Shown piece by piece: positions 5,722 to 28,474 of a DNA stretch of 64,000 nucleotides. Positions within the stretch are counted from its first letter, which is position 1, and each line of letters opens with the position of its first letter. Source of the stretch: Betaproteobacteria bacterium (GTDB lineage Bacteria; Pseudomonadota; Gammaproteobacteria; Burkholderiales; SG8-41). The stretch covers positions 1 to 64,000 of the forward strand of contig JAKFYK010000068.1 of NCBI GenBank assembly GCA_021730905.1. The letters run 5' to 3'. Under the pieces are notes generated by a model that did not search any database, was not told the DNA's origin, and saw only the letters and a program-made list of their open reading frames with translations. The translations under genes were made by a program, and so were the position numbers.

Positions 5722-6936
5722 ATGACTGAAAAGAAAAACTGGCGCACGCCCGCCGTTGTCGTCGCCTGCGGCGGTTTGGCCATGACGATAGTACTCGGCA
5801 CGCGTCACGGCTTCGGACTTTATCTGCAGCCGATGACGCTCGATCTGGGCATCAGCCGCGAGACGTTCGCCTTCGCCATTGCGCTGCAAAACCTGTTTTA
5901 CGGATTCTCGCAGCCGCTCACCGGCATGATCGCCGACAAATTCGGCGCGGCACGCGTGATGGCCACTGGCACCATAGCCTACGCCATCGGGTTGATTCTA
6001 ATGTCGCATTCAACTACGGGAATGGAACTCAATCTGAGCGCCGGCCTGCTGATCGGCATGGCGCTGGGCTGCTGCGGGTTCAGCACGGTGTATGGCGTGA
6101 TCGGACGCGTGGTTCCCGCAGAAAAACGCAGCACCGCCATGGGCGTCGTCGGCGCAGCGGGCTCGCTCGGACAGTTTCTGATGCTGCCGTATGGGCAGTT
6201 GCTCATCAATCACCTGGGTTGGCAACAGGCGCTACTGATTCTCGCCATCACGGTTTTATTGTTGCTGCCCCTGTCGACTGCGTTGGTCGAAGACAGGACG
6301 GCGCAAGCTCAAGCGCAATTCAAGCAGTCGATACCAGCGGCACTGCGCGAAGCCTTCAGCCACCGCGGATTCATGCTGATGTGCATCGCTTATACGGTCT
6401 GCGGATTTCAGCTGCTTTTTATTTCAGTGCACTTCCCGGCATATCTGGTGGACCAGAATATGACACCCGCGACCGGCATGATCGCGCTGGCGCTGATTGG
6501 CCTGTTTAATACCTTCGGCAGTTATACTTGGGGCTGGCTGGGCAGCCGCTACACCAAAAAGTATCTGCTGGCGACGCTCTACTTCACGCGCGCGATGGTG
6601 ATCATGGCCTTCATTCTGACGCCGCTGTCACCAATGACGGTTTATCTTTTTTCCGCCGCGATCGGATTTCTGTGGCTGGGCACGGCACCGGTCACCAGCG
6701 CGCTGATCGCGCAGATATTCGGCGCGCGCTACTTGTCCACGTTAAGCGGCTGCGCCTTCATGTTTCATCAGGTCGGCAGTTTCCTCGGGGTATGGATCGG
6801 CGGTCGTATTTTTGATGCGACCGGTTCCTACAACCTGATGTGGTGGATTACCATCTTCGCCGGCATCGTGGCGGCACTGCTCAGTTTACCGGTCGACGAA
6901 CGCCAGATTCCACGCAACGCAGCCGCGCCCGCCTGA
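5722..6936 (+). CDS. Major facilitator superfamily transporter
   Basis: A 404-residue inner-membrane carrier with twelve predicted helices. The opening (VVVACGGLAMTIVLGTRHGF then GLYLQPM) and the GMIADKFGAARVMATG loop between helices 2 and 3 fit MFS members of the monocarboxylate/oxalate-formate antiporter type. The second half begins near residue 210 (HRGFMLMCIAYTVCGFQLLF). The gene converges on a LysR regulator with only 17 bp between stops, so regulation by that neighbour is possible but not shown. The substrate is not evident; an organic anion is the best guess. Confidence 0.85.
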   Translation: MTEKKNWRTPAVVVACGGLAMTIVLGTRHGFGLYLQPMTLDLGISRETFAFAIALQNLFYGFSQPLTGMIADKFGAARVMATGTIAYAIGLILMSHSTTGMELNLSAGLLIGMALGCCGFSTVYGVIGRVVPAEKRSTAMGVVGAAGSLGQFLMLPYGQLLINHLGWQQALLILAITVLLLLPLSTALVEDRTAQAQAQFKQSIPAALREAFSHRGFMLMCIAYTVCGFQLLFISVHFPAYLVDQNMTPATGMIALALIGLFNTFGSYTWGWLGSRYTKKYLLATLYFTRAMVIMAFILTPLSPMTVYLFSAAIGFLWLGTAPVTSALIAQIFGARYLSTLSGCAFMFHQVGSFLGVWIGGRIFDATGSYNLMWWITIFAGIVAALLSLPVDERQIPRNAAAPA

Positions 6937-6953
6937 CTGCCGTTCAGACGGCA

Positions 6954-7907
6954 TCAGGTACCTGGACGGGTCGCTTCGCCCCGCAGCCATTCACGGAAAG
7001 CCGCCACCGCCGGGCGCTCGTCCGCGTGCTCTCCGCAAGCCATGTAATAGCCGTTGGGCAGCTTCACAACCAGATCAAACGGCACCACCAGTTTGCCGCT
7101 GGCGATATCTTCGGCAGCCAGCACCGGCATGCTGGCAAGCACCCCCACCGCATCTATCGCCGCTTCGAACGCCAGCACCGCATGACTAAAATGCGGCCCC
7201 TTGTTGGCATCTACGTCGGTCACGCCAGCCGCGTTTAGCCATAGACCCCAGAATGCTTCGTTGTCGTAGAGTGCCCCGGTATCATCGTGCAGCAGTAGGT
7301 GGTGCCTGAGATCAGACGGCTCCTTGAGCGGATGTTCGCCGGAAAGCAGTCTGGGGCTGCATATGGGCGTAATACTCAGATCGATAAGGCGTTCAACCTT
7401 GATGCCAGGCACGTTACCCCGCCCGTAGAGGATGGCGACGTCCGAATCGGCAAGCCAGGCTTCGACTGTAGCACGTTCCGCCAACTCGCCTTTTCCATCC
7501 ACGCTTAAGCGGCGCATGCGCGCGGAGATGTGCACATCAATTTCCGGATGTGCCGCGATAAAACGATGCAGGCGCGGCATCAGCCAGCGCGAGGCAAATG
7601 ACGGCGCCGCGCTAACGGTGAGCGACCCTCCGCCTTGATGCCTGCGTAGATGCGCAACCGCCTGCGCCAGACACTCGAATCCTTCTCCCAGCTTGGGTAA
7701 CGCGGCCCTGGCCACATCGGTGAGCTCCAGCGCGCGGTTATAGCGATGAAACAACTGCACGCCAAGATAGTCTTCGAGCGTACGTATCTGGTGGCTTACT
7801 GCTGCCGAAGTCACATTCAACTCGAGAGCCGCCTTCTTGACGCTTAAATGCCGGGCGGCAGCCTCGAAAGCCTTAAGCGAATTGAGCGGTGGCAGACGTG
7901 TGGGCAT
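6954..7907 (-). CDS. LysR-family transcriptional regulator, GcvA type
   Basis: A 317-residue regulator. Residues 1-65 hold the winged helix-turn-helix (RLPPLNSLKAFEAAARHLSV, then VTSAAVSHQIRTLEDYLGVQ), with the PLNALRAFEAAARH-type opening of GcvA-like proteins. Residues 95-300 form the effector-binding domain with LTVSAAPSFASRWLMPRL. A perfect 15-bp palindrome at 7919-7933, just upstream of the ATG, is a good autoregulatory LysR box. The divergent target would be the AT-rich small gene at 8078; the convergent MFS gene is another candidate. Confidence 0.9.
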   Translation of the reverse strand: MPTRLPPLNSLKAFEAAARHLSVKKAALELNVTSAAVSHQIRTLEDYLGVQLFHRYNRALELTDVARAALPKLGEGFECLAQAVAHLRRHQGGGSLTVSAAPSFASRWLMPRLHRFIAAHPEIDVHISARMRRLSVDGKGELAERATVEAWLADSDVAILYGRGNVPGIKVERLIDLSITPICSPRLLSGEHPLKEPSDLRHHLLLHDDTGALYDNEAFWGLWLNAAGVTDVDANKGPHFSHAVLAFEAAIDAVGVLASMPVLAAEDIASGKLVVPFDLVVKLPNGYYMACGEHADERPAVAAFREWLRGEATRPGT

Positions 7908-13814: not shown

Positions 13815-15830
13815 CTAAGCCGCCACCTGGTTGGGTGTACCACGCGCCATTTCCTTGATCGTCGCGTGTTGTTTCACGATTTCTGTCACATCCAGTATCA
13901 GCGCCACCCTGCCGTCGCCCAATATCGAGGCGCCCGCCATGTAAGCAACCTTGCGATAATTCGCTTCAAGACTCTTGATCACCACCTGATCCTGCCCCAG
14001 CAACTCGTTGACCTGCAGCGCGATGGTGCGGTTTTCGACCTCCAGCACGACCAGCACCGACTGCTCGGACGAGCTTTCGTCGTGCAAAGCACAAACATCG
14101 GTGAGCCTGAGGATCGGAATATATTCACCGCGCAACTGGATGACGTGCCCCTGCCCCACCACCGACTGCACCTGCGTGGACGACACCTGCAGGCATTCCC
14201 GGATAAATGCAATCGGAATGATATAACGTTCACCAGCCGCGCCCACGATCATGCCATCCACAATCGCCAGCGTCAGCGGCAGATTGATGGTGAACGTCGT
14301 GCCCTTGCCCAGCGTGGACGTAATATCCAGCGATCCGCCCAGCCTTCTCACGTTCTGGCTCACCACGTCGAGCCCGACACCCCGGCCCGATACATTGCTC
14401 ACCTTCTGCGCTGTGGAGAACCCCGGCCGCAACAGCAATGCATACATGGCGGATTCATCGAATTCCGCCTCCGTTATCAGGCCGATATCTACAGCGCGCC
14501 GCTTGATGAGTGCCGGGTTGATGCCGCGGCCATCGTCCACCACGGTAATCACGAAACGACCGCCGCGGTGCTCCGCATGCAATGAAAGCGTCCCCTTGGC
14601 GGATTTCCCGGTAGCCAGCCGGTCAGCAGGCAGTTCGATGCCGTGATCGAGCGCGTTGCGCACCAGATGCGTCAACGGATCAATAAGCTGCTCAATAACG
14701 CTTTTGTCCAGTTCGGCCTGTTCTCCGGAAATCTTGAGCTCGATGGCCTTGCCCAGCTGCAATCCAAGGTCGCGTACCAGTCGCGGGAAGCGCCCGAATA
14801 CGTGATTGACCGGCATCATGCGGATAGACAGCACGCGCTCCTGTATGTCCTGCACGTTGCGCTCCAACTGCGCAAATACCGACACTGCGCGAGCATCCTT
14901 GATCGCATCAAGATGCTGCGTCGACTGCTTGAGCATGGTGTGCGTAATCACAAGTTCGCCAACCAGATTCACCAGGTCGTCAATTTTTTCCGTGCGCACA
15001 TGCATTGTCACCAGCCCGGCATCGCGGCGAGACTCTGTTGCGGAATCCTGCGCACGCTGCGCCGGTTGGAGCACCGCCTGCGATTCGCTGCGCACGGACG
15101 CCTCCGCGGCCTGATCAATCTCGAGCGCGCAGCAATTGGATACCCACTCGAACACCTCGCGGATATCGCCGACTGCGGCCTCTGTTTCCAGAGTGATTCG
15201 CCACGCCAGATAGCAGGTGGTCGGCACGAATGACTGGATATCCGGCAACGCCGACAAATCCACGATGCAACGAACCGTACCCAGATGCGCCAATTCCTCG
15301 ATAAAACGCGCCGGGTCATTGCCGCTATGGAAGAAATCCTGCGCGGGTCGAAAAACAATCACGTAAGTACGTTTGTTCCGCTCCGTCGGAACGGCGCCCA
15401 TTCCGCCAGCGGTGGCAGCGGGGCCGGGCGACCCGGATACCACCTGCCGCAGCAATATCTGCAATTCACGTACGATGCCGGCGCCTGCTGCGGCATCTAC
15501 CGGCTCCTGCGCCTCGGACGCAATAAGCCAGTTACGCAGACAATCCACGCCACGCAGCAAAACATTGGTGCATTCGGGCGTTGCCTCCGCCGCGCCCTGG
15601 CGCAGCCGGTCCAGTACGGACTCCATTTCATGAGCCAGTTCCGCAATGACACCGAAACCCAGGCTTCCAGCCGATCCCTTGAGCGAATGCACCACGCGAA
15701 AGATGGAATCCAGTGTTTCCTTGCTGTGCCCATGCTGCTCAAGCCGCAGCAACTCCTGCTCCACGCTGTCGAGCCCCTCAAGACTCTCCGCAAAGAAGGT
15801 AGCGTGGAATCGGGACAGATCCAGGCTCAT
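13815..15830 (-). CDS. cheA: Chemotaxis histidine kinase CheA
   Basis: A 671-residue kinase. Residues 1-105 are the phosphotransfer domain with His48 (VVHSLKGSAGS). Residues 145-235 form a P2-like domain opening FRPAQDFFHSGNDP. The dimerisation domain (about 275-335) begins VRTEKIDDLVNLVGELVITH. The ATPase domain follows with the N box LVRNALDHGIE and glycine boxes VVDDGRGINP and GRGVGLDVV. The C-terminus (from about residue 520) is the CheW-like P5 domain. It autophosphorylates and passes phosphate to CheY and CheB. All signature residues are present. Confidence 0.97.
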   Translation of the reverse strand: MSLDLSRFHATFFAESLEGLDSVEQELLRLEQHGHSKETLDSIFRVVHSLKGSAGSLGFGVIAELAHEMESVLDRLRQGAAEATPECTNVLLRGVDCLRNWLIASEAQEPVDAAAGAGIVRELQILLRQVVSGSPGPAATAGGMGAVPTERNKRTYVIVFRPAQDFFHSGNDPARFIEELAHLGTVRCIVDLSALPDIQSFVPTTCYLAWRITLETEAAVGDIREVFEWVSNCCALEIDQAAEASVRSESQAVLQPAQRAQDSATESRRDAGLVTMHVRTEKIDDLVNLVGELVITHTMLKQSTQHLDAIKDARAVSVFAQLERNVQDIQERVLSIRMMPVNHVFGRFPRLVRDLGLQLGKAIELKISGEQAELDKSVIEQLIDPLTHLVRNALDHGIELPADRLATGKSAKGTLSLHAEHRGGRFVITVVDDGRGINPALIKRRAVDIGLITEAEFDESAMYALLLRPGFSTAQKVSNVSGRGVGLDVVSQNVRRLGGSLDITSTLGKGTTFTINLPLTLAIVDGMIVGAAGERYIIPIAFIRECLQVSSTQVQSVVGQGHVIQLRGEYIPILRLTDVCALHDESSSEQSVLVVLEVENRTIALQVNELLGQDQVVIKSLEANYRKVAYMAGASILGDGRVALILDVTEIVKQHATIKEMARGTPNQVAA

Positions 15831-15871
15831 GGCCCAATCGTCTTAACGTCTGAGCGCGATGAACTCATGTT

Positions 15872-17155
15872 TCAAAACTCCTTCCATTCGCCATCGTCGC
15901 CGGATGGAACACCACGCGTTGCCGTGGTGCCGGCGCCTAGTGCGGCCAGCCCCGCGGGGCGCGGGGTATTCGGCGCTGCAGGCGTCCGCTCATGGCTGCC
16001 TCGCGCCGCCGGTGCAGGCGCCCTGCCCGGATCGCGCGCGGGGTCCCGCCTGCGATTCAACAAAATCACGTCATTTTCGTCCACCTTGAATACGCCAACG
16101 ACCTCCTGCAAGCGTTGCGCCTGCATGCGCATGGAATCGGCCGCTGCAGACGCCTGTTCGACTACTGCCGCGTTCTGCTGCACCACCTGGTCCATCTGGT
16201 TGATGGCCTGATTGACCTGCTCAATACCGCTCGATTGCTCGCCGGACGCATTGCTGATCTGATCGATGATGCCGGTAACCCGCGCCACCGAGTCAACAAT
16301 CTCCGTCATGGTCTTGCCAGCGGCTTCAACCAGCCGCGTTCCTTCTTCGACCTTTTCCACCGAATTGCCGATCAGGCCCTTGATTTCCTTTGCCGCATCC
16401 GCCGAGCGCTGCGCCAGGCTGCGCACTTCCGACGCCACCACTGCAAAACCCCTGCCCTGCTCTCCGGCACGCGCCGCTTCCACTGCGGCGTTCAAGGCCA
16501 GGATATTGGTCTGAAACGCGATGCTGTCAATCACTGAAATGATGTCCGCGATCTTGCGCGAGCTTTCCTGAATTTCGTTCATGGTGACGACGACTTCGCC
16601 GACCACCTTACCGCCATTCGCGGCGACCGCATTGGCGTTTTTCGCGAGCACGTTGGCCTTGCGCGCGCTCTCGGTGTTTTCCTTCACCGCTGCAGTCAAT
16701 TGCTCCAGGCTCGATGCAGTTTCTTCCAGCGTTGATGCCTGTTCTTCCGTGCGCTGCGACAGGTTATTGTTGCCCGTGGCCACTTCGTCCGCTGAAGTGA
16801 CTATGGCTTCTGCGCCATACCGGATGTCACTCACCATGCGCGTCAGATTCTCGTCCATCGACTTGAGCGCCAGCATCAGGTTGCCGAACTCGCCATGTCC
16901 GTCAGTGTTGATTCTGACGGTGAGATCGCCTGCCGCCACCCGATCAGCAAGAGACACCGCGGTGGCCAATGGCATCGTGATCGCGCGCACGGTGAGATAC
17001 CACATGATAAGCAGCAGCACCGCCGTGACGATAAACAGGGCCACCATGATGTTGCGCGGGCCTGCCGGCATGTTGAGAATGCCGACAGTGGCCATCGCCA
17101 TGATCAGCGCAAGAATAACGGCAACGCCCAGCCGTAATCTGTTTTTCATCGACAT
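15872..17155 (-). CDS. Methyl-accepting chemotaxis protein without a periplasmic sensor domain
   Basis: A 427-residue receptor. Two membrane helices (about residues 7-27 and 35-55) are joined by only a few residues, so no ligand domain is exposed outside. A HAMP domain follows (ITMPLATAVSLADRVAAGDL) and then the long coiled-coil signalling domain with the invariant hairpin [20 protein letters not shown]. The Pro-rich tail ends in EWKEF, an xWxxF docking peptide for CheR/CheB. It probably senses a membrane or cytoplasmic signal. It sits between cheY and cheA in the operon. Confidence 0.95.
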   Translation of the reverse strand: MSMKNRLRLGVAVILALIMAMATVGILNMPAGPRNIMVALFIVTAVLLLIMWYLTVRAITMPLATAVSLADRVAAGDLTVRINTDGHGEFGNLMLALKSMDENLTRMVSDIRYGAEAIVTSADEVATGNNNLSQRTEEQASTLEETASSLEQLTAAVKENTESARKANVLAKNANAVAANGGKVVGEVVVTMNEIQESSRKIADIISVIDSIAFQTNILALNAAVEAARAGEQGRGFAVVASEVRSLAQRSADAAKEIKGLIGNSVEKVEEGTRLVEAAGKTMTEIVDSVARVTGIIDQISNASGEQSSGIEQVNQAINQMDQVVQQNAAVVEQASAAADSMRMQAQRLQEVVGVFKVDENDVILLNRRRDPARDPGRAPAPAARGSHERTPAAPNTPRPAGLAALGAGTTATRGVPSGDDGEWKEF

Positions 17156-17182
17156 GACGGAACCCTCGGCTTGAACATCGAT

Positions 17183-17548
17183 CTATGCCGGCAGCACTTT
17201 GCGCAGGACGCTGAGCAGCGCTTCGGGATCGAACGGCTTGACGATCCACCCCGTTGCGCCGGCCGCCCGCCCCTTGGATTTCATTTCCGGCTGCGACTCG
17301 GTGGTCAGCAGAATAATCGGCACGAACTTGTATTCGGGCAGCTTGCGCAACTCGGCAACCAGTTCTATGCCGGTGCGCCCCGGCATGTTCACGTCCGAAA
17401 TCACCAGGTCGAAGCCCTGCTTCTGGGCATGGGCCAGAGCCTCGTCGGCATTGCCCGCTTCGGTGACCTTGTGGCCGGCCGACGCCAGCGTGAAATTGAC
17501 CATTTGCCTCATGGTCATGGAGTCGTCAACAATCAGAATATTCGACAC
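17183..17548 (-). CDS. cheY: Chemotaxis response regulator CheY
   Basis: A 121-residue single receiver domain that carries phosphate from CheA to the motor. The acidic pair DD is at residues 8-9, the phospho-acceptor Asp52 is in VISDVNMPGRTG, the switch threonine is in ILLTTES, and the conserved Lys104 is in IVKPFDP. It lies between the CheZ-like gene and the mcp. No flagellar or pilus motor gene is in the window. Confidence 0.95.
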   Translation of the reverse strand: MSNILIVDDSMTMRQMVNFTLASAGHKVTEAGNADEALAHAQKQGFDLVISDVNMPGRTGIELVAELRKLPEYKFVPIILLTTESQPEMKSKGRAAGATGWIVKPFDPEALLSVLRKVLPA

Positions 17549-17564
17549 AACATTCTCCCAAATT

Positions 17565-18830
17565 CTAGAATAACTCCACGTCTACTTTCCGTACCTTGCC
17601 GGGCGCGAGATGGTCCTCTCGAGCAGGGATGTGCAGCTCTCCCATCGCGTTCTTGGCCATATCACCCGCATGTGTCACACCCGCTGCACGCGTTCTGGAC
17701 GCGGCGCTCGCGATGCTCGCCGACGCTTCCGCCAGCAACGGCTCCTTGATGTGCTCGAGCTTCTGCTGGGTAATGTCCTGGTACTGCATCGCGATGATGA
17801 TCTGATTGATATCGTTGCGCACGTCCTTGCCGAGCGAGGTAATCTTCTCCAGCGTGGTCGTGACCTCGCGCGCCTTTTCCATGGTGGCGATGTTGAGCTG
17901 CGACACATCGACTTTCGCCTGCACCGCCGCCAGCCGCACATTGTCGCTGGACTTGCTCAGCTCGTCATAAGTGCCGCCCATCACTTCACGGATTTTCTCC
18001 AGCCCATCGCGCATCCGCCGCGTCAGTTCATGCGCCGAAGTACTGGTCTCCCGGATGCGGTCGGCGATTTCGATGAACCACCGGCTGTCGGTATTGGCAT
18101 CGCGATTCGCCGCCACGGTGGAATCCAGTGCCAGCTTGCGGATACGCGCCGCCATGTTGCGTAACTCGTCCAGCATTTCGTCAATCGCCAATGAATGTTC
18201 GCGCACTACATCCTGATGGCGCGACATTTCCTCGGAAGCCTTGGAAAAATCCATCATGCGGCTGGTGACATTATCCAGTTGCCGCTCGTACGCCGTGATG
18301 AAATCCGGCAGCGACAGCCACGTGGAACCGCCCGACCCGTCGCCGGAACTGCTTTTCAGCAAGCGCACCGCGCTATCCATTTGCAGGCCGGTTTTGTCCA
18401 TGATCACGCGAAAGCTCTTGCCGATGTTCGCTGCCGCCGCTTCGGATTGTTGCGTCACATCATCCAGTGATGCACGTGCATGCTGGATGCTGCTGCTGGC
18501 AACCTGCGACGACTCCAGCCAAACCTCCAGCAAGCTTTGCAATGCCGCAGCGGATTGAGTGGCTGCCGCGACCTCGCTGCGGTCCGTTGCCTGCATCGCG
18601 GCGCCTTGCACACGTACCGCTTCAACACGACCCATCATCGTGTGATAAATCAAAAACAGCGCCACCACAGAAAACACCAGAGAAACCAGGGCGACCCACA
18701 GCGGTACCGCCCACACCCCCCAAACCCAGGGCAAGAGCACGGCGACCGCGCACAACACCATCGTCTTGCCGCCACCTGCGGCTTCGCGCTTGCCGCCCCC
18801 CTTGTCATCCTTGTGAAGCACCGCGCTCAC
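17565..18830 (-). CDS. Membrane-anchored chemotaxis protein with a CheZ-like phosphatase motif
   Basis: A 421-residue protein. Two membrane helices lie near residues 24-62 (VLCAVAVLLPWVWGVWAVPL and LVSLVFSVVALFLIYHTMMG), followed by a long helical coiled-coil region with no canonical MCP signalling hairpin. Near the C-terminus is IIIAMQYQDITQQ, with Asp352 and Gln356 spaced as D-x3-Q. In CheZ the segment AQDFQDLTGQ uses exactly this Asp/Gln pair to dephosphorylate CheY-P, and here too the tail follows a long helix. It lies next to cheY. I infer a membrane-tethered CheY phosphatase; a receptor-like protein is the alternative. Confidence 0.65.
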   Translation of the reverse strand: MSAVLHKDDKGGGKREAAGGGKTMVLCAVAVLLPWVWGVWAVPLWVALVSLVFSVVALFLIYHTMMGRVEAVRVQGAAMQATDRSEVAAATQSAAALQSLLEVWLESSQVASSSIQHARASLDDVTQQSEAAAANIGKSFRVIMDKTGLQMDSAVRLLKSSSGDGSGGSTWLSLPDFITAYERQLDNVTSRMMDFSKASEEMSRHQDVVREHSLAIDEMLDELRNMAARIRKLALDSTVAANRDANTDSRWFIEIADRIRETSTSAHELTRRMRDGLEKIREVMGGTYDELSKSSDNVRLAAVQAKVDVSQLNIATMEKAREVTTTLEKITSLGKDVRNDINQIIIAMQYQDITQQKLEHIKEPLLAEASASIASAASRTRAAGVTHAGDMAKNAMGELHIPAREDHLAPGKVRKVDVELF

Positions 18831-19132
18831 GCCGCAGGCCCCAGCACCACGTCGATAGCGAGCAAAGCAAGCAGTTCACTCAGGCGCTGCGATGGATTGC
18901 TGATGCGCACCGTCTTGCCCTGCTCGCGGGCGCGCACCACTGCAACCGCCAACAACTGCGCCAGCGAAGTATCCGGGCGTGCCACCGCCGAAGCATCGAG
19001 ATCCACGGTCGCATGGGTGTTCAGCCGCTCGTGAATCTCGTTCCAGATTTCGTCGATCTCGCGTATGCCTGCGTCGGCGGAAAGCGTATAGGTATTCGTG
19101 GGCACGTTTGCTTTTTTAATTGAGCCGGTCAC
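18827..19132 (-). CDS. STAS-domain protein at the head of the chemotaxis operon
   Basis: A 101-residue stand-alone STAS domain, the fold of anti-sigma-factor antagonists. Strand-helix order is visible: TYTLSADAGIREIDEIWNEI, then ATVDLDASAVARPDTSLAQL with Thr/Ser at the usual phospho-site turn, and TVRISNPSQRLSELLALLAI. Its stop overlaps the start of the CheZ-like gene by four bases (ATGA). STAS proteins of this kind sit in several chemotaxis-like operons, where they are thought to be phospho-switches; no partner kinase is visible here. Confidence 0.8.
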   Translation of the reverse strand: MTGSIKKANVPTNTYTLSADAGIREIDEIWNEIHERLNTHATVDLDASAVARPDTSLAQLLAVAVVRAREQGKTVRISNPSQRLSELLALLAIDVVLGPAA

Positions 19133-19323: not shown

Positions 19324-20442
19324 CTAAGTCCGCCGCATCTCCTGCATGCTGCGGGCGTATTGGCCGTCCTTGCGTTTCAGTGCCCTGGTCACTGCTTTGG
19401 TTGCGCCAAAGGTCGGTATCACCGCCGAGTGTTTGCCCGCACCACCGATGACCGCGATCAACAGGTTGTCGGGGTTGTGGATCATTGGAACCGGTGCATC
19501 CATCCCGGCAGTCTTGTAAACCGAGGCAAATGCCACGCGAAAGCGCCGTTCGATGTTTTCCCCGGAAAACGTGCCCAGCGGGATTTTCGAGTGGTCCGCG
19601 ATAAATTTCTTCGCCGCTTTTTTGCTGATGCCGTCGTTGGCAATGGTTGCCGCGTGTTCCGGCCCCATCACAATCAGCGGTGTTGCGTCCTCGTAATAAA
19701 TATCGTTCGCGCCGGTGGAAATCATGGTGCCGGCAATGGTCGTCAGAATGCCGGTGCCGGAAATACTTTCATGGTCGTTCACGTTGTGCGGGCATTCGGC
19801 GCCCACCACCGTGACGCACGTTGCGTCTTTGGGAAAACCGCGCTCCACGTGCAGCGGTTCCCACGGATTGCGCGCTTCGTTTTCGGCTACACAATACGAG
19901 TATTTGTTCGGCCCGCCAAACGTGGACATATCGCCCAACGCCGGAATCGCTCCGCCAATGTTCAATAAAATCAAACGGATAGCGCGCCCTATCGTGGCAT
20001 TGCTATGCGTGCCGGGGCCGAACGCGTTATGGCCGCTGTTCATGCCCAGTTCCACCGCGCCGGGGCCATTGACGATCACCAGCGGCGAACACATATGCGT
20101 GGTCGCCTGTATGCCATAAAGGTTAAACGCTTCGTCACACATCGCTTCGACCGCCAGCACAATCAGCGGGAAATATTCCGGCCTGCAACCCGCCATCACT
20201 GCGTTCGCGGCGAGCCGCAGTGGCGTGGCTTCGCCATAGCGCGGCGCGACTTTCGCCACCGGCTCATTCCACGGGCGGTCGCAATATTCCAGCATCGCCG
20301 CAACACGTTCTTCGGTCGGCGGGATTAATGGCAAGCCGTCGCCCCAGCCCTTTTCCAGATACAGTTCATTGATGGCAAAAAAATCGTCCTTCGCTTCCAG
20401 ACTCGCGTCAGGTGCTTTTAACAAGTCGCTTAGGTGACTCAT
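19324..20442 (-). CDS. Conserved protein co-translated with the UGSC selenoprotein
   Basis: A 372-residue protein, start MSHLSDLLKAPDASLEAKDD. The ATG overlaps the stop of the selenoprotein gene by four bases; a longer in-frame form would run far into that gene and is rejected. Visible features are an ELYLEKGWGDGLPLIPPTEE opening, five or more cysteines (AGCRPEYFP, EAMCDEAF, HMCSPLVIV, YSYCVAEN, AECPHNV) and glycine-rich turns NGPGAVELGMNSGH and GTGILTTIAG. I cannot assign a family function. No signal peptide or membrane segment is seen. The coupling and cysteine content suggest it is a redox or catalytic partner of the selenoprotein. Confidence 0.75.
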   Translation of the reverse strand: MSHLSDLLKAPDASLEAKDDFFAINELYLEKGWGDGLPLIPPTEERVAAMLEYCDRPWNEPVAKVAPRYGEATPLRLAANAVMAGCRPEYFPLIVLAVEAMCDEAFNLYGIQATTHMCSPLVIVNGPGAVELGMNSGHNAFGPGTHSNATIGRAIRLILLNIGGAIPALGDMSTFGGPNKYSYCVAENEARNPWEPLHVERGFPKDATCVTVVGAECPHNVNDHESISGTGILTTIAGTMISTGANDIYYEDATPLIVMGPEHAATIANDGISKKAAKKFIADHSKIPLGTFSGENIERRFRVAFASVYKTAGMDAPVPMIHNPDNLLIAVIGGAGKHSAVIPTFGATKAVTRALKRKDGQYARSMQEMRRT

Positions 20443-20978
20443 CGGGCATGTTCCTTGATAAGCTTCACAAATTCCGGGATCGCCACTTCGGCGCGCCCTT
20501 CGACTTTTTCCAGCGAAATGCCGCCCAGCGGATGCGGTATTACAATCAGCGGCAAGTCCGGCACGCCAAACACGCGTGACTGTGCCTTGCCCAGCTTGAG
20601 GAACGCATCGGTGCAAATCACCGCTGTCACCAGACCGCGTTTACGCAACTCTGACATGTCGTGGACACTCCACGACGTGCAAGAGCCTCAATCGGCCATG
20701 GCGCTGATAACGCAGTCCGCCTTCTCCGTGAGTTCGTCGAGCACATTTTTCCCGGCAGGTATCGAGGGCGATGGTTTACGCAGCGCCACCACCGTCGCCA
20801 CTTTCATCTGCGCCTTCACACCTTCGACAATGAATTTCAACAGGTGATCGGCGTTGCCCTTGCTGTTGTCCAATATGCCGAGGCGGATGCCACCCGCGGC
20901 AAAATCACGCTGCTTGCCAGTGGCGGCAGTCGCCGGCGGCGGCGCCTCGGGGTTCACCAGCCGCACCATGGTATTCAT
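20439..20978 (-). CDS. UGSC-type selenoprotein (in-frame TGA read as selenocysteine)
   Basis: One 179-residue frame if the TGA at 20688-20690 encodes selenocysteine (residue 97). The frame runs unbroken through CVISAMAD-U-GSCTSWSVHD to MSELRKRGLVTAVICTDAF and stops at 20439. The U-G-S-C motif with the following T..VHD and VICTDAF segments is the pattern of the UGSC (seleno)protein family. Eleven bases after the TGA an 8-bp perfect hairpin with a GTG loop forms (20658-20676), fitting a bacterial SECIS. Conventional calling would give fragments of 96 and 72 residues. The stop overlaps the next gene (ATGA). Function is unknown; a Sec/Cys redox centre is likely. Confidence 0.85.
20658..20676 (-). 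promoter_or_regulatory. Putative bacterial SECIS hairpin of the UGSC gene
   Basis: On the minus strand, GTCGTGGA-GTG-TCCACGAC gives an 8-bp perfect stem and a three-base loop. After one mismatch a few more pairs extend the base. The loop begins 19 nt after the TGA. Bacterial SECIS elements lie inside the coding region just 3' of the UGA, with a G and U in the apical loop about this far away, as in fdhF. Confidence 0.7.
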
Positions 20979-21431
20979 TGTCTACTCCCTCGGAAGGTCG
21001 GAAAGCGTGGGACTCTATCGTATGCACTGCGCTGCCGCAAATGGCCAGCAACAGGGCAGAGGTAAGTCAGCCGCGCACCTCATGCTATCAGAAACAAAAT
21101 CGTGAATACTATATAAGTATTTGTTTTTATTATACTTTATTGAAAGTACCCCAAGGGATGGCAGCCGTCGCCGTCGCCGTCGCGTCGACTATGTCCGCAG
21201 ACCGCATCGTTTGTCAGCCCTATCGGCAAGCACGGAATCCATCCCGCGTTCCTGTTGCAGGATGCACCGATCCCGCCTCACCCATCCATGCGTACAGGAA
21301 CAACCGCACGCAAAACACGAAAATAATCCGGTTTCATTGTAAAGTCTCGACCTGCGTAATCGGTCAATGCGACTTCATCCCGCGCAATACTTGGGGCCGC
21401 TCGAATACTCAGAAAAAACGTAGAGGTCCGG
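20979..21431. other. 453-bp intergenic region between the selenoprotein and GGDEF/EAL genes
   Basis: No convincing gene is seen. The region holds a perfect copy of the AT-rich 16-bp element (21114-21129) and a short GTCGCC microrepeat (21164-21187). It is the leader of two divergent genes and should contain both promoters; no clear -35/-10 pair stands out apart from AT-rich DNA around 21100-21145. Confidence 0.5.
21114..21129 (+). repeat. AT-rich 16-bp element, copy 2 (perfect)
   Basis: TAAGTATTTGTTTTTA, followed by TTATACTTTATT which resembles the AT-rich extension of other copies. It lies in the divergent region 135 bp from the selenoprotein start and about 300 bp from the GGDEF/EAL start. 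Confidence 0.7.
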
Positions 21432-21437
21432 TTGCAA

Positions 21438-24311
21438 ATGCAAAATTCCATTGCCCGTAAGGTAACGCTGGGGGTCGGCGTCATCGTATTCGGGGCCACC
21501 GTCGCGATGTTTACGACGTATTTCGTATCGACAACGGCAACCAATTCAATACAAGAGTCGCAGGAACTCAGCCAGTCGATGCTAAGTGCCGCCGCCGGCA
21601 TGGAAGTCAGCACGATTGCCGGTGGACTGCAGGTATTCAAGTATCTGGAAACCGGCGACCCGCATTTCCGCCAGACATATCAGCGGCAAAGCGATCAATT
21701 CCTGCAGCAATACAGCCGCTTTCAGTCGCTGGCTCATCTCCGGGAATGGCAGGACGCCGGGCGCGCCATCGCCAATGACCAGAAGGGGCTCGATCAGATC
21801 AGTCTTGACCTGATGTCCCGCCACGATCAACGGCAGGCGGAGGTGCTGTCGGCGTACAAGAGTTTGCGGCAACTGGATACCTTGTTGCGACCGTCCCGTT
21901 TTGGCAGCACGCCCGGATCGCCTGCACAGGTGATCGCGGAAAAGAGCAGAGCCAGCCTCGCCGAGATATCCCTGTGGCTCGGTGACTTTCTGTACAGCGG
22001 ACAAAATGGCGACAGGATCGCCGCGCAATTAGCGGAAATGCGTTCATTGATCAACGCGCGTGGAAAACTGCCGCTGGAGGAAGCCGATAACCGTGTCTTT
22101 GCCGAACTCCAGCGGACGTTTGAGTCGTTCAGTACGTCCATGAATCAGTTGCTGCAATCCTCGAATGCAACACGCGCCAGCATGGCAAAAATGCTCGAAC
22201 TGCAGCAACAAATTACCTCAACCATTGCCACCCGCATCAGACCGACGCTGACACGCTACAGCGAAGACACCCGGAACCGGATGGATACCCAGATGATCCG
22301 GGTGCTCTTGGTTGCCGGCGGCATGTCGCTGGTGCTGTCGCTGCTGGCGGTGCTCGCCGGCCGCTACGTGCGGCGCTCGATCGTCGACCCGATACAGCAA
22401 CTCGCAACCGGAGCCGATGCGGTTGCCGCCGGCAATCTGGATCACCGGGTCGTCATCGATACCGGCGACGAATATTCGGCGCTTGCCAAGAATTTCAATC
22501 ACATGGTCGATCAGTTGCAGGGCACCACCGTGTCCAAGACGCTGCATGAGGAACAGGAAACGCAGTTGCGCACCCTCCTGGACGGCGTGCACGATTACGC
22601 CATCTTCTCCGTCGACGATCAGGGGTTCGTGACCAAGTGGAACCAGGCCAGCGCGCGCATATTGGGCTACGAAGCAGAGGACATGCAGGGCGTATCTTTT
22701 GCGCGCATTTTCAAGGATGTCCAGTATTCGCGCGTCGCGCGCGACCAGGGGATGCTCGCCATCGCATCAACCGGCCGCTTTGAATCCGACACCATACTTC
22801 TGCGCAAGAACGGCGACGAGTTCGAAGCCAACGTCGTCGTCACTCCGTTAAGCACGGGCGATGGCGGCATCAAGGGATACTCGGTCGTGGTGCGCGACAT
22901 TACGGAAAGAATGAAAGCGGAACGCCACATCGAGCAACTCGCCACCAAGGACACGCTGACCGGGCTGTCCAATCGCAGCATGCTGATGGAACAGATGAAC
23001 ACTGCCATCGCCCGCGCCTTGCGTTCGCAAAACCAGTTGGTGCTGATGTTCATCGATCTTGACCACTTCAAGGCGGTCAACGACACGCTGGGTCATGCCG
23101 CCGGCGACGAATTGCTGCGCGAATGCGCCAAACGGCTGACGGAATGCGTGCGCGAGGTGGATATCGTGGCGCGGCTCGGCGGCGACGAATTCGTGGTATT
23201 GCTCACCGACGTCACCGATACCGCGATAGTCGCGCCTATCGCGGACCGCATGCTTAAGTTGCTGACCACGCCGTATCACCTGCACGGCCACGATGCGCAG
23301 ACCTCGGCCAGCATCGGCATCTGCTTCTATCCCGCCGACGGAAATGATGTCACGGCGTTGATGAAGAACGCCGACATTGCGATGTATCACGCCAAGGAGC
23401 TGAACCGCAATAACTACCAGTTCTACGCGGAAGAAATGAACCAGCGCATGATGCGCCGCCTGCAACTGGAGCGCGAATTGCGCGCCGCGGTCCAGAACAA
23501 CGAATTTATCTTGCACTACCAGCCGCAGGTCATCGTCGCTACCGGGGAAATTCGCGGCGCGGAGTCTCTGCTCAGATGGCAGCATCCGACCGAGGGATTG
23601 CTGTCACCAACGGGTTTCATTTCGGTTGCCGAGGAAACCGGCCTGATCCTGCCCATGGGCGAGTGGATCCTGAACGAGGCCTGCCGCACCATCAAGGCAT
23701 GGCGGGCCAAAGGCGTGGGTATTCCTTACGTCGTGGTCAATGTCTCGGCGGCGCAACTGGGCGAGGGATTGGTGACCTCCGTGCGGCAAGCGCTGGTAAC
23801 CCATGAAATAGAGCCTGCCTGGCTGATGCTTGAAATCACCGAAACCATGCTGATGGAGCGGGTTGAAGAAGCCATCTCCATATTGCGACGCATACGCGAG
23901 CTTGGCATCCGCATCGCAATGGATGATTTCGGCACCGGCTATTCGTCGCTCAGCGTGCTGCAACGCCTGCCGCTCGACACACTGAAAATCGACCGCAGCT
24001 TTGTCATTGCCATCGACGATGAGGTCAACAATTCGCGGGCGGTCGCCATCATCGGCGCCATCATCGCCATCGCGAAAGAACTCAATCTGAGCGTGGTGGC
24101 GGAAGGCGTTGATTCGACCACGCAGCTCGCGTTCCTGCGCACCCTGAATTGCGATACCTATCAGGGTTATCTCTACAGCAAACCCATCGACGCGGCGACG
24201 CTAGAAAAGCGCTTTGCCGCGCCGGTGAAATCCGTGCTGGAAGACGAGGACGGGCACGCGATCACCATGACGACCAGAGTCACGATGGAAATTTCCGTCG
24301 ATGCGCAGTAG
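21438..24311 (+). CDS. Membrane sensor with HAMP, PAS, GGDEF and EAL domains
   Basis: A protein of about 957 residues that makes or breaks cyclic di-GMP. The order is membrane helix (about 10-32), a helical extracytoplasmic sensor region, a second helix (about 290-312), HAMP, PAS (about 375-495), GGDEF (about 500-665) and EAL (about 675-930). The GGDEF motif RLGGDEFVVLL is intact. The EAL motif reads ESL, but the other catalytic segments remain (LEITETML, MDDFGTGYSSLS, LKIDRSF, VVAEGVDS), so phosphodiesterase activity is plausible. An AGAGG site precedes; TTG 21432 is an alternative start. It may link cyclic di-GMP to the adjoining chemotaxis genes. Confidence 0.92.
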   Translation: MQNSIARKVTLGVGVIVFGATVAMFTTYFVSTTATNSIQESQELSQSMLSAAAGMEVSTIAGGLQVFKYLETGDPHFRQTYQRQSDQFLQQYSRFQSLAHLREWQDAGRAIANDQKGLDQISLDLMSRHDQRQAEVLSAYKSLRQLDTLLRPSRFGSTPGSPAQVIAEKSRASLAEISLWLGDFLYSGQNGDRIAAQLAEMRSLINARGKLPLEEADNRVFAELQRTFESFSTSMNQLLQSSNATRASMAKMLELQQQITSTIATRIRPTLTRYSEDTRNRMDTQMIRVLLVAGGMSLVLSLLAVLAGRYVRRSIVDPIQQLATGADAVAAGNLDHRVVIDTGDEYSALAKNFNHMVDQLQGTTVSKTLHEEQETQLRTLLDGVHDYAIFSVDDQGFVTKWNQASARILGYEAEDMQGVSFARIFKDVQYSRVARDQGMLAIASTGRFESDTILLRKNGDEFEANVVVTPLSTGDGGIKGYSVVVRDITERMKAERHIEQLATKDTLTGLSNRSMLMEQMNTAIARALRSQNQLVLMFIDLDHFKAVNDTLGHAAGDELLRECAKRLTECVREVDIVARLGGDEFVVLLTDVTDTAIVAPIADRMLKLLTTPYHLHGHDAQTSASIGICFYPADGNDVTALMKNADIAMYHAKELNRNNYQFYAEEMNQRMMRRLQLERELRAAVQNNEFILHYQPQVIVATGEIRGAESLLRWQHPTEGLLSPTGFISVAEETGLILPMGEWILNEACRTIKAWRAKGVGIPYVVVNVSAAQLGEGLVTSVRQALVTHEIEPAWLMLEITETMLMERVEEAISILRRIRELGIRIAMDDFGTGYSSLSVLQRLPLDTLKIDRSFVIAIDDEVNNSRAVAIIGAIIAIAKELNLSVVAEGVDSTTQLAFLRTLNCDTYQGYLYSKPIDAATLEKRFAAPVKSVLEDEDGHAITMTTRVTMEISVDAQ

Positions 24312-24322
24312 ACATTGAAGCG

Positions 24323-26026
24323 TTAAAATTCTTTCCAGTCGCCATCGCCCGATTTCGGTTGCAGCACACCGGTTTTTGATGCTTCGGCAGCCTTAGGCAA
24401 CGCGATACCCCTGCGCGCCGGCGTGAGCCGCGTCGCCGTGGAAGTCATCGCCGGTACCGATGGATGCGGTTGCCTCGGCGCAGGCTGGGCCGGTGCCATG
24501 CCTCTCAGCTTGAATACGCTCACCGCCTGATAAAGCTGTTGCGCGTTTGTCTGCATCGATTCCGCGGCAGCGGCAGCCTGCTCGACTACGGCAGCGTTCT
24601 GCTGCACCACCTGGTCCATTTGCCCGACCGCCTGGTTCACCTGCTCTATGCCACTGGCCTGCTCGCGCGAGGCAGAACTGATCTGGTTGATGTTCGCAGT
24701 TACTTTCTCCACCGAGGCGACGATCTCGCTCATGGTCTTGCCGGCGCTTTCAACCTGGCGGGTACCTGCTTCGACTTTTTGCACGGAATTGCTGATCAAC
24801 CCCTTGATCTCCTTGGCGGCGTCGGCGGAGCGTTGCGCCAGCGCGCGCACTTCGCTGGCAACCACGGCAAACCCGCGGCCTTGTTCGCCGGCACGGGCAG
24901 CTTCCACTGCCGCATTCAATGCAAGAATATTGGTCTGAAAGGCGATGCTGTCGATCACGCCAATGATGTCCGCGATCTTTTTCGAGCTTTCCTGAATCTC
25001 GTTCATGGTGGCGACCACTGCACCTACCACGGTTCCGCCCTGTGCCGCTACTTTATTGGCTTCTTTTGCCAGCGCGTTGGCATTATCGGCGCTTTGCGTG
25101 TTTTCACGCACCGCAGCCGTCAGTTCTTCGGTGCTGGCTGCTGTCTCTTCGAGCGTGGAAGCCTGTTCCTCTGTACGCTGCGAGAGATTAGCGGTACCGG
25201 AGGCGACTTCTTCGGCGGATGAACGGATCGATTCCGCGCCACGGCGGATGTCATGCACCATGCGCGTGAGGTTCTCATTCATGGTCTTGAGCGCGCCCAG
25301 GAGCTTGCCGAACTCGTCACTGGAGTCGGCCTCGATTTGCACGGTCAGGTCCCCCGCCGCCACGCGATTGGCAAACGTCAACGCTTTGTCCAGCGGAACC
25401 GAGATTGAACGGATGGTGAAATACAGCACCAGCAGCAGCACTGCAACCGTGAGTATTACCAGCACCACCAGAATGATTCTCAGCGCCGCAGCCTGATCCA
25501 GCGCGTTTTTTTCCAGCGCCTCGGCCGCACTCTGCTGCAACTGGATCAACTCGGAGAGTCCCGCTATCGTGCCGGCGCCATGGGGCGCTATGGTCTTCGA
25601 ATGCCACTCGGCGGCTTCCTCCAGTTTCCATTCGCCATACAACTGGAACCAGCGTGGACGCGCATCCTTGAATTGCCTGAAAACGTCTTCAAGCTTCTTC
25701 AGTCCGGCCATTTCCTCCGCGGTGTGTTGGCCGCTCCTGAAGGCTGCCAGATTGTCATCGATTTCCTTGTTCCATCTGCGCTCGTCGGCGACGATCTTGT
25801 CGCGCGCAGTCTTGTCGGTGTACAAAATAAACTGCGGAAACCCGTAACGCAATTGCCACAGCGCATTCTGCGCATTGGCCAACTGCACCGCTCCCCGTGA
25901 GCTGGCGCCCACCGCGTCGATCAACTGCAGGGAGCGCATCATGTTCCAAATGCCGACCCCGCCCACCACCATCACCATCAGCAGGATAATGCCCAGCCCT
26001 GTGACCAATTTGCCTTTAACCGTCAT
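24323..26026 (-). CDS. Methyl-accepting chemotaxis protein with a four-helix-bundle sensor
   Basis: A 567-residue receptor. The first membrane helix ([20 protein letters not shown]) is followed by a periplasmic four-helix bundle (about residues 35-185), a second helix ([20 protein letters not shown]), HAMP, and the signalling domain with [21 protein letters not shown] Pro-rich tail ends in DWKEF, an xWxxF docking peptide. The start at 26026 has a GGAGGAT ribosome-binding site; an upstream in-frame ATG is unlikely. It converges on the GGDEF/EAL gene with 11 bp between stops. Confidence 0.95.
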
Positions 26027-26380
26027 GATCGTATCCTCCGTGTTTCGCAACCCTTTGCGACTCGCGTTCTAACGACACGATCATCGCAATCTGACTTAAT
26101 CTGAATCACGTACCACGACTCGGTTGTTAAATGCGTTTTCAATGTTACGTAAATGATCTCGCTCAGGTAATTATTTGAAAGAAAAGTGAAGTCGGTAACG
26201 GCTTCCATTAGAGCACTTAAGCCACGGGCCTTCAAGAGGGCGCTCCAGCCGTTCGCATAACCGCTGTATCGGGGCAAGCGTGGGGCGAAATTTTTCGCGC
26301 AAGGACAAACTTTGCAGCGGATGCCGTGCGGCGTTTGAATCCGGCACCGCCTCATGCCGCAAAGCAAGTCATCCCAATAC
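26027..26380. other. 354-bp region without a supported gene
   Basis: It lies between the CoA-ligase stop and the MCP start, both on the minus strand. A minus-strand frame rich in Cys and Arg crosses it but overlaps both neighbours, lacks a ribosome-binding site and resembles nothing known. Only the GGAGGAT site of the MCP is recognisable. Confidence 0.5.
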
Positions 26381-28474
26381 TCATCCACTGCTTATGACCG
26401 CATCAACCGCAATTACACCTTTATCGCTGGCGATCAGCGGATTGATTTCGATTTCGCGCAACCGGTTGATATGATCGGCGATCAGCCATGACACGCGGCT
26501 CACCGCGTCCGCCAGCGCATCGATGTCGCAGGCCGGTTTGCCACGATAACCCTGCAGGATTTGCGCACCCTTGAGACTCAGCACCAGTTCATGCGCGGCA
26601 GTCACGCCGAACGGCGCGTAGCGGCGCGCCACGTCTTTGAACAACTCAGCATACACGCCGCCCATGCCCACCACCACCAGCGGACCGAACGACGGATTGT
26701 TGAGCGCGCCGACGATCAGTTCGACGCCTTGCGCCATCTCCTCGATCAACCAGCCGCGGATGCGCGCGTCAGGCCTGTAGGCAACGACACTTTGCTTCAT
26801 TTTCACCAGCGCTTGCCCTAATTCATCCTTGCTTGTGATGCCAATGCGCACGCCGCCGGCATCCGTCTTGTGCGGCAGATCGGGACTCACCACCTTCAAC
26901 ACCACCGGGAATTTCAAACCACACGCCTGCAAAGTGCCCTCTTCGCCCGCTGCGACAAACATGCGCTTGGGCGTCGCGATGCCGTACGCTTCGAGACAGG
27001 CTTTCCCCTGCAGCTCATCGAACCCGCCTGGCATGTCAAGCGGCAACGCCTGTTTCGCGATAACACGGCTTGCCTCAACGTGCCGCGCCGTGCGCTCGCA
27101 CTTGCGCGCGAATTCGTGCAACGCCGCAGCCGCGTACACCACCCGGCTCGGCGCTTCAAAACACGGCACACCGGCGGCCTCCAACGTTGGCAGCCACGCC
27201 GACGATTCACGCAAAGTGCCCGTCAAACTGATGAGGATCGGCTTGTCGCTTGCGCTGGCGGCTGCCGCGAAGTTGTGCGCCCAGAGCGGCGCGTCGCGCC
27301 CCGGATACGAACGCAAAATCAGCATATCCACGTTCGGATCGTCGAGCACGGCTTGCGTGGCCGCGCTGAACTCCGGCTCCTTCTGCGCGATCGCCGCCGT
27401 GACATCGATGGGATTCGCCGTCGAAGCAAAATCCGGCAGTAGCGGCTTTAACGCCGCGAGCGTGGGCGCGGTCATTTCCGGCAAAATAAGATTCGCGTGC
27501 TCGCAGGCATCCGCGAGCAACACACCCGCGCCGCCGGAGGTGGTAACGATTGCCACGTGATTGCCGCGCGGACGCTTGCGTGAACGAAACACGCGCGCGG
27601 CATCGATCAAATCGTAAATCTCGCGTATCTGGAGGAAGCCGCCCTCGCGAAACGCATCGCGATAATAGTCGTAGTCCTCCGTGAGATTGGCAGTGTGCGA
27701 CACCGCCGCGCGGCTGCCGGCGCGTGTGTTGCCGACTTTCCACACCGCGATGGGTTTGCCGGTCTCCAACGCACGGCGTCCCAGCGCGCGCAGGCGTCGG
27801 CCATCATGGATGCCTTCCATGTACACCGCGATCAACTGCGTTTGCTCATCCTCGAGAAAATATTCGATGAAATCCAGCGTGTTAAGGCTGCTCTCGTTGC
27901 CGGTGGAAACCATGTGGTCAAAGCCGATGCCGGCTTCTTCGCAGTAAGTCATGATCGAATAGGCAAAACCGCCGCTCTGCGAAATCATCGCCACCGGCCC
28001 GCCGCGCCAGTCGGTTTTGCGGAACGCCGCGCCAAAGCCCGCGAATACGCGGCTGCGCAGATTCATCATACCGACACAATTCGGTCCCACGGCACGCACG
28101 CCGGACGATTCAAGCGCGGTCTGCAAACACGCTTCCAGCGCTGCGCCACGCTCGCCGATTTCACGAAAACCCGCGCTCAGTATCACCGCATGCGAAATAC
28201 CACGCCGCCCGCATGCCTCCAGCGTATTCGGCACTTCCGCTGCCGGCACCGCGATCACCGCGAGATCGCAGCGCTGTGGCAGCGCATCGACACTGGCATA
28301 ACACGCGCGGCCTTCGATTTCGGTATAGCGCGGGTTTACTGCAAACACCTGACCCGTGTAACCCTGATGCGTCAGCGAATACAGCGGCTGCCCGCCGGCG
28401 CGGCGCGTGTCCTGCGTGGCGCCGACAATGGCAACGGATTGCGGGTTGAATAGCGTGTTCAAATGTAAAATCAT
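26381..28474 (-). CDS. NDP-forming acyl-CoA synthetase (acetate-CoA ligase family), alpha-beta fusion
   Basis: A 697-residue enzyme of the ADP-forming CoA-ligase superfamily. It begins with a Rossmann CoA-binding domain (LFNPQSVAIVGATQDTRRAG), followed by the ligase domain with a phospho-His region (AVSHTANLTEDYDYY). An ATP-grasp domain lies at about 480-690 (ARRYAPFGVTAAHELVLSLK near its end). It would activate an acid to its CoA thioester. An AT-rich 16-bp element abuts the ATG directly, leaving no ribosome-binding site. It is downstream of a Bug pseudogene, a Bug receptor and a dioxygenase on the same strand, which suggests a catabolic unit for an imported acid. Confidence 0.92.
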   Translation of the reverse strand: MILHLNTLFNPQSVAIVGATQDTRRAGGQPLYSLTHQGYTGQVFAVNPRYTEIEGRACYASVDALPQRCDLAVIAVPAAEVPNTLEACGRRGISHAVILSAGFREIGERGAALEACLQTALESSGVRAVGPNCVGMMNLRSRVFAGFGAAFRKTDWRGGPVAMISQSGGFAYSIMTYCEEAGIGFDHMVSTGNESSLNTLDFIEYFLEDEQTQLIAVYMEGIHDGRRLRALGRRALETGKPIAVWKVGNTRAGSRAAVSHTANLTEDYDYYRDAFREGGFLQIREIYDLIDAARVFRSRKRPRGNHVAIVTTSGGAGVLLADACEHANLILPEMTAPTLAALKPLLPDFASTANPIDVTAAIAQKEPEFSAATQAVLDDPNVDMLILRSYPGRDAPLWAHNFAAAASASDKPILISLTGTLRESSAWLPTLEAAGVPCFEAPSRVVYAAAALHEFARKCERTARHVEASRVIAKQALPLDMPGGFDELQGKACLEAYGIATPKRMFVAAGEEGTLQACGLKFPVVLKVVSPDLPHKTDAGGVRIGITSKDELGQALVKMKQSVVAYRPDARIRGWLIEEMAQGVELIVGALNNPSFGPLVVVGMGGVYAELFKDVARRYAPFGVTAAHELVLSLKGAQILQGYRGKPACDIDALADAVSRVSWLIADHINRLREIEINPLIASDKGVIAVDAVISSG

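Follow-up and report, generated by a model that had tools for sequence, protein, structure and literature searches.

A minus-strand gene broken by an in-frame TGA lies in the 64,000-nucleotide stretch, here called the window, at positions 1 to 64,000 of contig JAKFYK010000068.1 of a Betaproteobacteria bacterium (assembly GCA_021730905.1; 5.1 Mb, 182 contigs, 91.7% complete). Is this codon read as selenocysteine (Sec), and what kind of enzyme could the protein be? Judged by its sequence, the gene is a true and ordinary member of the known UGSC family, which has no assigned function. The TGA at codon 97 almost certainly encodes Sec, on the combined evidence of sequence, profiles and genome. The best explanation of the whole, which we hold on balance to be probable, is that a Sec-containing UGSC protein and a partner form an enzyme that is reduced by thioredoxin and has radiated over different substrates. 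The original prediction, which concerned frame, motif and hairpin, made no mention of the partner, of the 17 paralogues in the genome or of a kinship to Sec-containing reductases.

Decoding of the in-frame TGA

A mechanical listing of open reading frames (ORFs) splits the gene in two, at 20688-20978 (96 aa) and 20439-20657 (72 aa). As originally predicted, and correct to the base, both share one minus-strand frame, and the 30 bases between them (20658-20687) translate to GSCTSWSVHD. The joined protein of 179 residues scored 142 bits against PF24696 of Pfam (cut-off 25) and 127.2 bits against NF041046 of NCBIfam (cut-off 125, barely passed), in agreement with the family originally named. Because either half alone also scored with the UGSC models of Pfam and NCBIfam, over the expected part, the read-through frame is more than chance. 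It was likewise confirmed that the stop codon shares ATGA (20439-20442) with the ATG that starts the following gene. Both profiles, the U-G-S-C motif and the position of Sec are shared with the UGSC (seleno)proteins described previously (PMC2398784; this and all further papers are cited from the part of their text available to us), the difference here being 17 copies in one genome, with the partner separate or fused.

Table 1. Coordinates of the gene pair, its signals and its surroundings in the window.
Feature	Position	Strand	Remarks
UGSC-family selenoprotein gene	20439..20978	-	179 codons plus stop, through TGA97; PF24696 and NF041046 profiles
In-frame TGA, selenocysteine codon (almost certain), residue 97	20688..20690	-	motif D-U-G-S-C-T; 7 Cys homologues; one TGA per own-genome hit (n=17)
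Putative SECIS hairpin GTCGTGGA-GTG-TCCACGAC	20658..20676	-	8-bp stem, loop GUG; -12.6 kcal/mol over 24-nt stretch
GAGGGAG, likely ribosome-binding site of the UGSC gene	20985..20991	-	read directly; function suggested by position
Partner gene, 372 aa	19324..20442	-	overlaps UGSC stop as ATGA; adjoins or is fused to UGSC in other loci and phyla
Surroundings	13815-19132, 21432-28474		CheA, methyl-accepting chemotaxis proteins, CheY-like receiver, STAS, GGDEF-EAL, acyl-CoA ligase

If translation truly ended at TGA97, or if the codon reflected a sequencing error or gene decay, two short peptides would result, as the split in the mechanical listing might suggest. This is very improbable. Exactly one TGA was found in each of the 17 UGSC hits of the genome and in 83 further sequences from other genomes, and the codon was kept in all four relatives compared. 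Past the TGA, synonymous codon differences to these relatives numbered 29, 23, 24 and 19 and nonsynonymous ones 4, 4, 16 and 28, respectively. The predicted conservation of coding sequence past the TGA is thus seen as an excess of synonymous changes in three of the four; the relative L048, with 19 and 28, is the exception. The stop or pseudogene reading was rejected on TGA conservation, on this synonymous bias and on a hairpin that exceeds its synonymous null (see below), and the complete Sec machinery of the genome also speaks against it.

SelA, SelB and SelD of the genome scored 578.5, 449.5 and 419.2 bits, respectively, and the tRNA-Sec gene (selC) 74.5 bits, with anticodon TCA according to ARAGORN. 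All four genes for which a check had been proposed are thus present, with tRNA-Sec, SelB and SelA lying near each other on a single contig. Absence of selB and selC, or of any conservation past the TGA, had been named as grounds for giving up the original prediction; both were looked for and neither was found. SelD is itself a selenoprotein, with its own TGA in the active site GGGUGCK (L044:1000-2130, contig C143).

At the motif site, the expected U or C occurs with few exceptions: Sec in 17/17 own paralogues and Cys in seven homologues (L076, one L093 copy and five plasmid homologues), with neither in L098. SelB exceeded its cut-off in 26 of the 28 genomes with UGSC vs 3 of the 13 without (41 genomes examined). 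In the UGSC genome G013, SelB matched solely in pieces, some at contig ends, and in the UGSC genome G022 (∼91% complete) no SelB match exceeded the cut-off. Inside 80 named loci no SelA or SelB was found at 1e-30. On the Paracoccus plasmid pFER4 (L147, 6381-13128), a TGA-split UGSC gene, the partner and selB lie within 7 kb, with selB 3.3 kb beyond the partner, possibly as a mobile Sec island.

The hairpin begins 11 nt past the TGA, as predicted, and occupies positions +15 to +33, with loop residues G23-U24 (numbered from the U of UGA). The rules for a bacterial selenocysteine insertion sequence (SECIS), as printed in a 2026 review (PMC13188914), are a loop of 3-9 nt, a stem of 4-16 bp, a G in the first two loop positions, a UGA-to-loop distance of 16-37 nt and a minimum free energy of -7.5 kcal/mol or lower. 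With a 3-nt loop that starts with G, a distance of 19 nt and the stem and energy given in Table 1, the hairpin lies within each limit. Because the hairpin stretch also encodes conserved residues, synonymous recodings of 48 nt served as the null, with folding stability taken over the 24-nt hairpin stretch; equal stability was reached in 16 of 5000. Sec machinery, homologues and the SECIS rules together support the Sec insertion originally proposed.

The same comparison, with 200 recodings each, was made for 100 different Sec sequences, of which 17 are own and 83 come from other genomes. GT occupies positions 23-24 in 86 of them, vs 0/7 Cys forms, and 71 had at most 10 recodings as stable as the natural sequence; five of the seven Cys forms are without an unusual hairpin.

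Several observations weigh against a uniform Sec signal. In 29 of the 100 Sec sequences more than 10/200 recodings were as stable, and two haloarchaeal Cys genes retain the hairpin with 7/8 pairs. Among the own paralogues, stability was not unusual in L032b (87/200), L041 (190/200) and L042 (187/200) and marginal in L028 (22/200) and L040 (21/200); L038 and L039 were stable (3/200 and 4/200) in a different register, with 5/8 canonical pairs and TG at 23-24. A Sporomusa plasmid homologue has Met at the Sec site. The canonical stem is missing in the five longest-fused own paralogues, L038-L042, with the TGA retained, and an alternative SECIS register is possible there. The Sporomusa gene (L148, 5314-7038) appears to be a UGSC-partner fusion, judged without a profile on its first half, with a flavin adenine dinucleotide (FAD) oxidoreductase adjoining.

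The partner gene and the paralogues

The overlapping partner carries the conserved motifs DGLPxxPPT and NAVMAGCxPEY (MAGC). In the genome, 19 partner places, two of them fragments, stand beside 17 UGSC genes identified by Pfam profile search. The partner was present in the fetched locus for 16 of these 17 and adjacent or fused in 15; in L037, four same-strand genes separate the two, and around the L036 UGSC gene (6633-7076) no partner was found in the fetched 14 kb, a TctC-like gene following directly. A scan with the partner alone gave at least 588 stretches, and among the best 80 of these a UGSC match of 80 bits or more was present in 71 loci. The linker was free of stops in 20/25 same-frame UGSC-partner pairs, and all 13 plasmid records with a UGSC hit also had a partner hit. 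UGSC and partner thus very probably form a two-part complex. Against this stand eight of the best 80 partner loci without UGSC and one with a weak match, the presence of UGSC in just 13 of 24 plasmid records with a partner, and the replacement of the MAGC Cys by Gly in L041 and L042. At L029:4520-6552, a single UGSC gene follows a tandem pair of partner paralogues, which suggests a three-part complex.

The partner matched no Pfam family, had one weak NCBIfam hit in one of the 17 and found no credible relative among PDB sequences (best E 0.045). A model of the window partner (predicted local distance difference test, pLDDT, 93.9) gave nothing at E≤1e-3 against PDB folds. A 2008 study describes UGSC fused to a conserved domain, 'Unknown_1' (PMC2398784), which is probably this partner; the match is by description, with the sequences uncompared.

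In all 24 sampled relatives from the taxonomic family of this bacterium, 4 to 58 UGSC hits each were found, fragments included. The richest relative, with 58, had exactly one TGA in 51, a TGA plus another stop in three and none in four. At phylum level, UGSC was present in 5 of 398 sampled genomes, the own genome included, in a search that scored up to eight candidates per genome and was used for presence only. These numbers contrast with a 2006 survey in which, in the text seen, FdhA is given as the sole selenoprotein of Sec-decoding Alpha- and Betaproteobacteria (PMC1794560). A 2016 table lists 26 and 33 for UGSC, which we read as organisms and genes, the column heads being unconfirmed (PMC5029168), and the largest bacterial selenoproteomes are put at 57 and 63 genes (PMC13188914). 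In the portions of the literature on UGSC available to us, copy number, a link to TrxB and kinship to GrdB were not seen reported.

The 112 partner sequences were placed in a tree, where the 17 copies of the own genome require 14 changes, vs an average of 16.1 in shuffles, and are spread among other genomes and phyla. The set is therefore read as an old radiation and not as recent copying. The closest named relatives, among the matches listed, are the betaproteobacterial genomes UBA5216 and AM_0616. Metagenome bins titled Bordetella parapertussis (L056, L059, L108, L116) cluster with uncultured betaproteobacteria and are probably mislabelled. On a conjugative IncP plasmid of Acidovorax sp. T1 (L142), a Sec-type UGSC gene and its partner have IS1071 and IS91-like transposase genes a few kb away.

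Fold, reductase kinship and candidate chemistry

A natural UGSC-partner fusion, L106, was modelled at pLDDT 93.9 and a predicted template modelling score of 0.92. Strands and helices alternate in its UGSC half. Compared with PDB folds, the whole chain drew flavodoxin/Rossmann-like neighbours (lumazine synthase, RpiB, MsuE, WrbA), mostly with ∼120-230 columns aligned and none at E≤1e-3. Since they were missing when the window partner was compared by itself, which gave no match at that level, we attribute these neighbours to the UGSC half. No thioredoxin occurred among the 50 neighbours listed for the fused chain. The model thus suggests a flavodoxin-like and not a thioredoxin-like fold, and a thioredoxin fold was rejected on the strand-helix order and these neighbours. 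Thioredoxin-fold selenoproteins (Prx-, Trx- and DsbA-like) share the UxxC redox motif and differ in the fold class that the model predicts for UGSC. Against PDB sequences UGSC had no credible relative (best E 0.021).

Kinship to GrdB and PrdB, the Sec subunits of glycine, sarcosine, betaine and D-proline reductases, was scored for the 17 own paralogues against NCBIfam at E≤0.05. TIGR01917 (GrdB) was matched by 11 (best 3.7e-6), TIGR01918 by seven (6e-6), PrdB TIGR04483 by six (5.8e-7) and GrdH by four (3.8e-6). Shared features are these weak but repeated matches over the Sec region, UxxC (kept in 16/17), a second subunit and a thioredoxin reductase nearby in several lineages, whereas UGSC lies far below the cut-offs, is a short domain and has a partner outside Pfam. 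In Cloacibacillus, a GrdB-like fluoroacetate-cleaving operon is an example of GrdB-type proteins recruited for a different substrate, here with cleavage of a C-F bond (PMC10838667); it differs in belonging to Synergistota and in containing kin of the GrdB substrate-binding components, and its abstract mentions no UGSC partner.

Of the 80 named loci, 11 have a TrxB-like gene immediately upstream of UGSC and in the same orientation, namely Neobacillus and ten of one mostly alphaproteobacterial clade with a weaker match (80-110 bits). Such a gene also adjoins the pair on Variovorax, Roseovarius and Arthrobacter plasmids, in Arthrobacter together with trxA, which by our count makes five lineages. 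Well under one such gene would be expected by chance in the 0.99 Mb scanned (an estimate assuming one or two per genome), and none occurred in 17 randomly chosen regions of the own genome, which were the sole control. Glycine reductase is fed by a thioredoxin/thioredoxin reductase chain (PMC3091704).

In the mechanism that we propose, SelB and tRNA-Sec almost certainly insert Sec at TGA97, directed by the hairpin. In a two-part enzyme, UGSC would then provide the selenol, as a subunit or as a domain, and the partner, overlapping and often fused, probably binds the substrate. The U97 selenolate might attack the substrate or a partner-held adduct, as with GrdB and PrdB; the model for D-proline reductase has the PrdB selenolate attacking PrdA-held substrate and ending as a selenide-sulfide (PMC10298544, PMC3091704). 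C100 could resolve the intermediate as a selenenylsulfide, after which thioredoxin and thioredoxin reductase would restore the selenol. Paralogues within one genome may serve different small, probably carboxylate-like substrates. By analogy, we judge such thioredoxin-reduced, GrdB/PrdB-like catalysis by the UGSC pair to be moderately probable.

A number of results weigh against it. The window protein scores 23.8 bits against TIGR01917 (cut-off 602.2) and 16.6 against TIGR01918 (cut-off 65.45), far below both. The GrdB motif is UxxCxxC (PMC13188914); the window protein has U97, C100 and W103 and so departs from it, the full motif occurring in three of the 17 paralogues (L027, L029, L037). The resolving Cys is not universal, because C100 is Ser (U-G-S-S, with Sec kept) in the own copy L032b (L032:11645-12073) and in L093, L100, L116 and L101. 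The 25 neighbour families listed, of 105 in all, do not include those of grdA, grdC, grdD and the pyruvoyl subunit, for which no dedicated search was made. With regard to a pyruvoyl-forming partner such as GrdE or PrdA, the partner gave no more than the one weak NCBIfam hit mentioned above, and two of the 17 UGSC members weakly match PF09338 (best 0.0028). The TrxB-like gene was absent from the 15 own-genome loci tested, which hold 16 of the 17 UGSC genes, and was not found among the window neighbours scanned. Finally, the window pair stands alone beside a chemotaxis cluster and not in a catabolic operon.

Two other functions were weighed. UGSC could act in redox defence as a thiol/selenol oxidoreductase or peroxidase of general function, with the partner as regulator or substrate protein. 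UxxC is a redox motif, and the title of a cited paper ascribes peroxidase activity to GrdB. The predicted strand-helix alternation and flavodoxin/Rossmann-like neighbours point elsewhere, as do the many diverged copies, nearly each with its own partner and differing local genes, unlike a defence enzyme; we consider this unlikely. Alternatively, in a non-redox enzyme (lyase, hydratase or transferase) the selenolate would act as nucleophile or acid-base group and thioredoxin would merely keep it reduced. U-G-S-S members without a resolving Cys would suit this, as would a weak likeness of the partner fold to fumarate hydratase and Toblerone-fold hydrolases (E 2e-3 to 1e-1, template modelling score <0.3). 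These fold matches are non-significant, UxxC persists in nearly all own paralogues and the TrxB-like neighbour recurs across five lineages; we consider a non-redox role unlikely as well, marginally more so than redox defence.

Extending the reductase-like reading, the betaproteobacterial family may have radiated the UGSC-partner module into tens of paralogous selenoenzymes in each genome, driven by thioredoxin and each acting on an organic acid of its own, a proposal that we make tentatively and rate a little short of probable. If true, these would be reductive catabolic enzymes of a class not recognised so far, the partner would have a new fold, and the selenoproteomes would come near the largest reported. 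The gene itself is ordinary; its surroundings raise the interest of the family beyond its listing. The function of UGSC becomes directly testable through what the data suggest, namely the class of its fold, a partner that is almost always present, a probable source of electrons and Cys forms in organisms that are in culture.

Neighbouring genes

Neighbouring families were scanned in 139 of 141 ORFs, two being left out. For TctC-type receptors, the 173 kb surrounding the 17 UGSC genes contained 30 hits (13/17 regions), vs 14 in 187 kb of 17 control regions (7/17), and the window has no TctC within 5.5 kb. TctC as a specific partner of UGSC is weakened by this mere 2.3-fold enrichment and by genome-wide abundance; the 5.1-Mb genome holds at least 150 TctC-type receptor genes, 150 of 537 candidates having been scored. 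Phosphosulfolactate-synthase-like and phosphoenolpyruvate-mutase-like neighbours seen on plasmids are not general, occurring in one and none of the 80 named loci, respectively.

One paralogue has a catabolic setting, which speaks for the proposed enzyme: it lies in a run of acyl-CoA dehydrogenase, short-chain dehydrogenase/reductase-like, UbiD, partner, UGSC, TctC and TauD genes. Elsewhere, neighbours vary by locus and include UbiD, acyl-CoA dehydrogenase, TauD and GMC oxidoreductase as well as OmpA, FecR and a cyclase; these differences between loci suit different roles of the paralogues.
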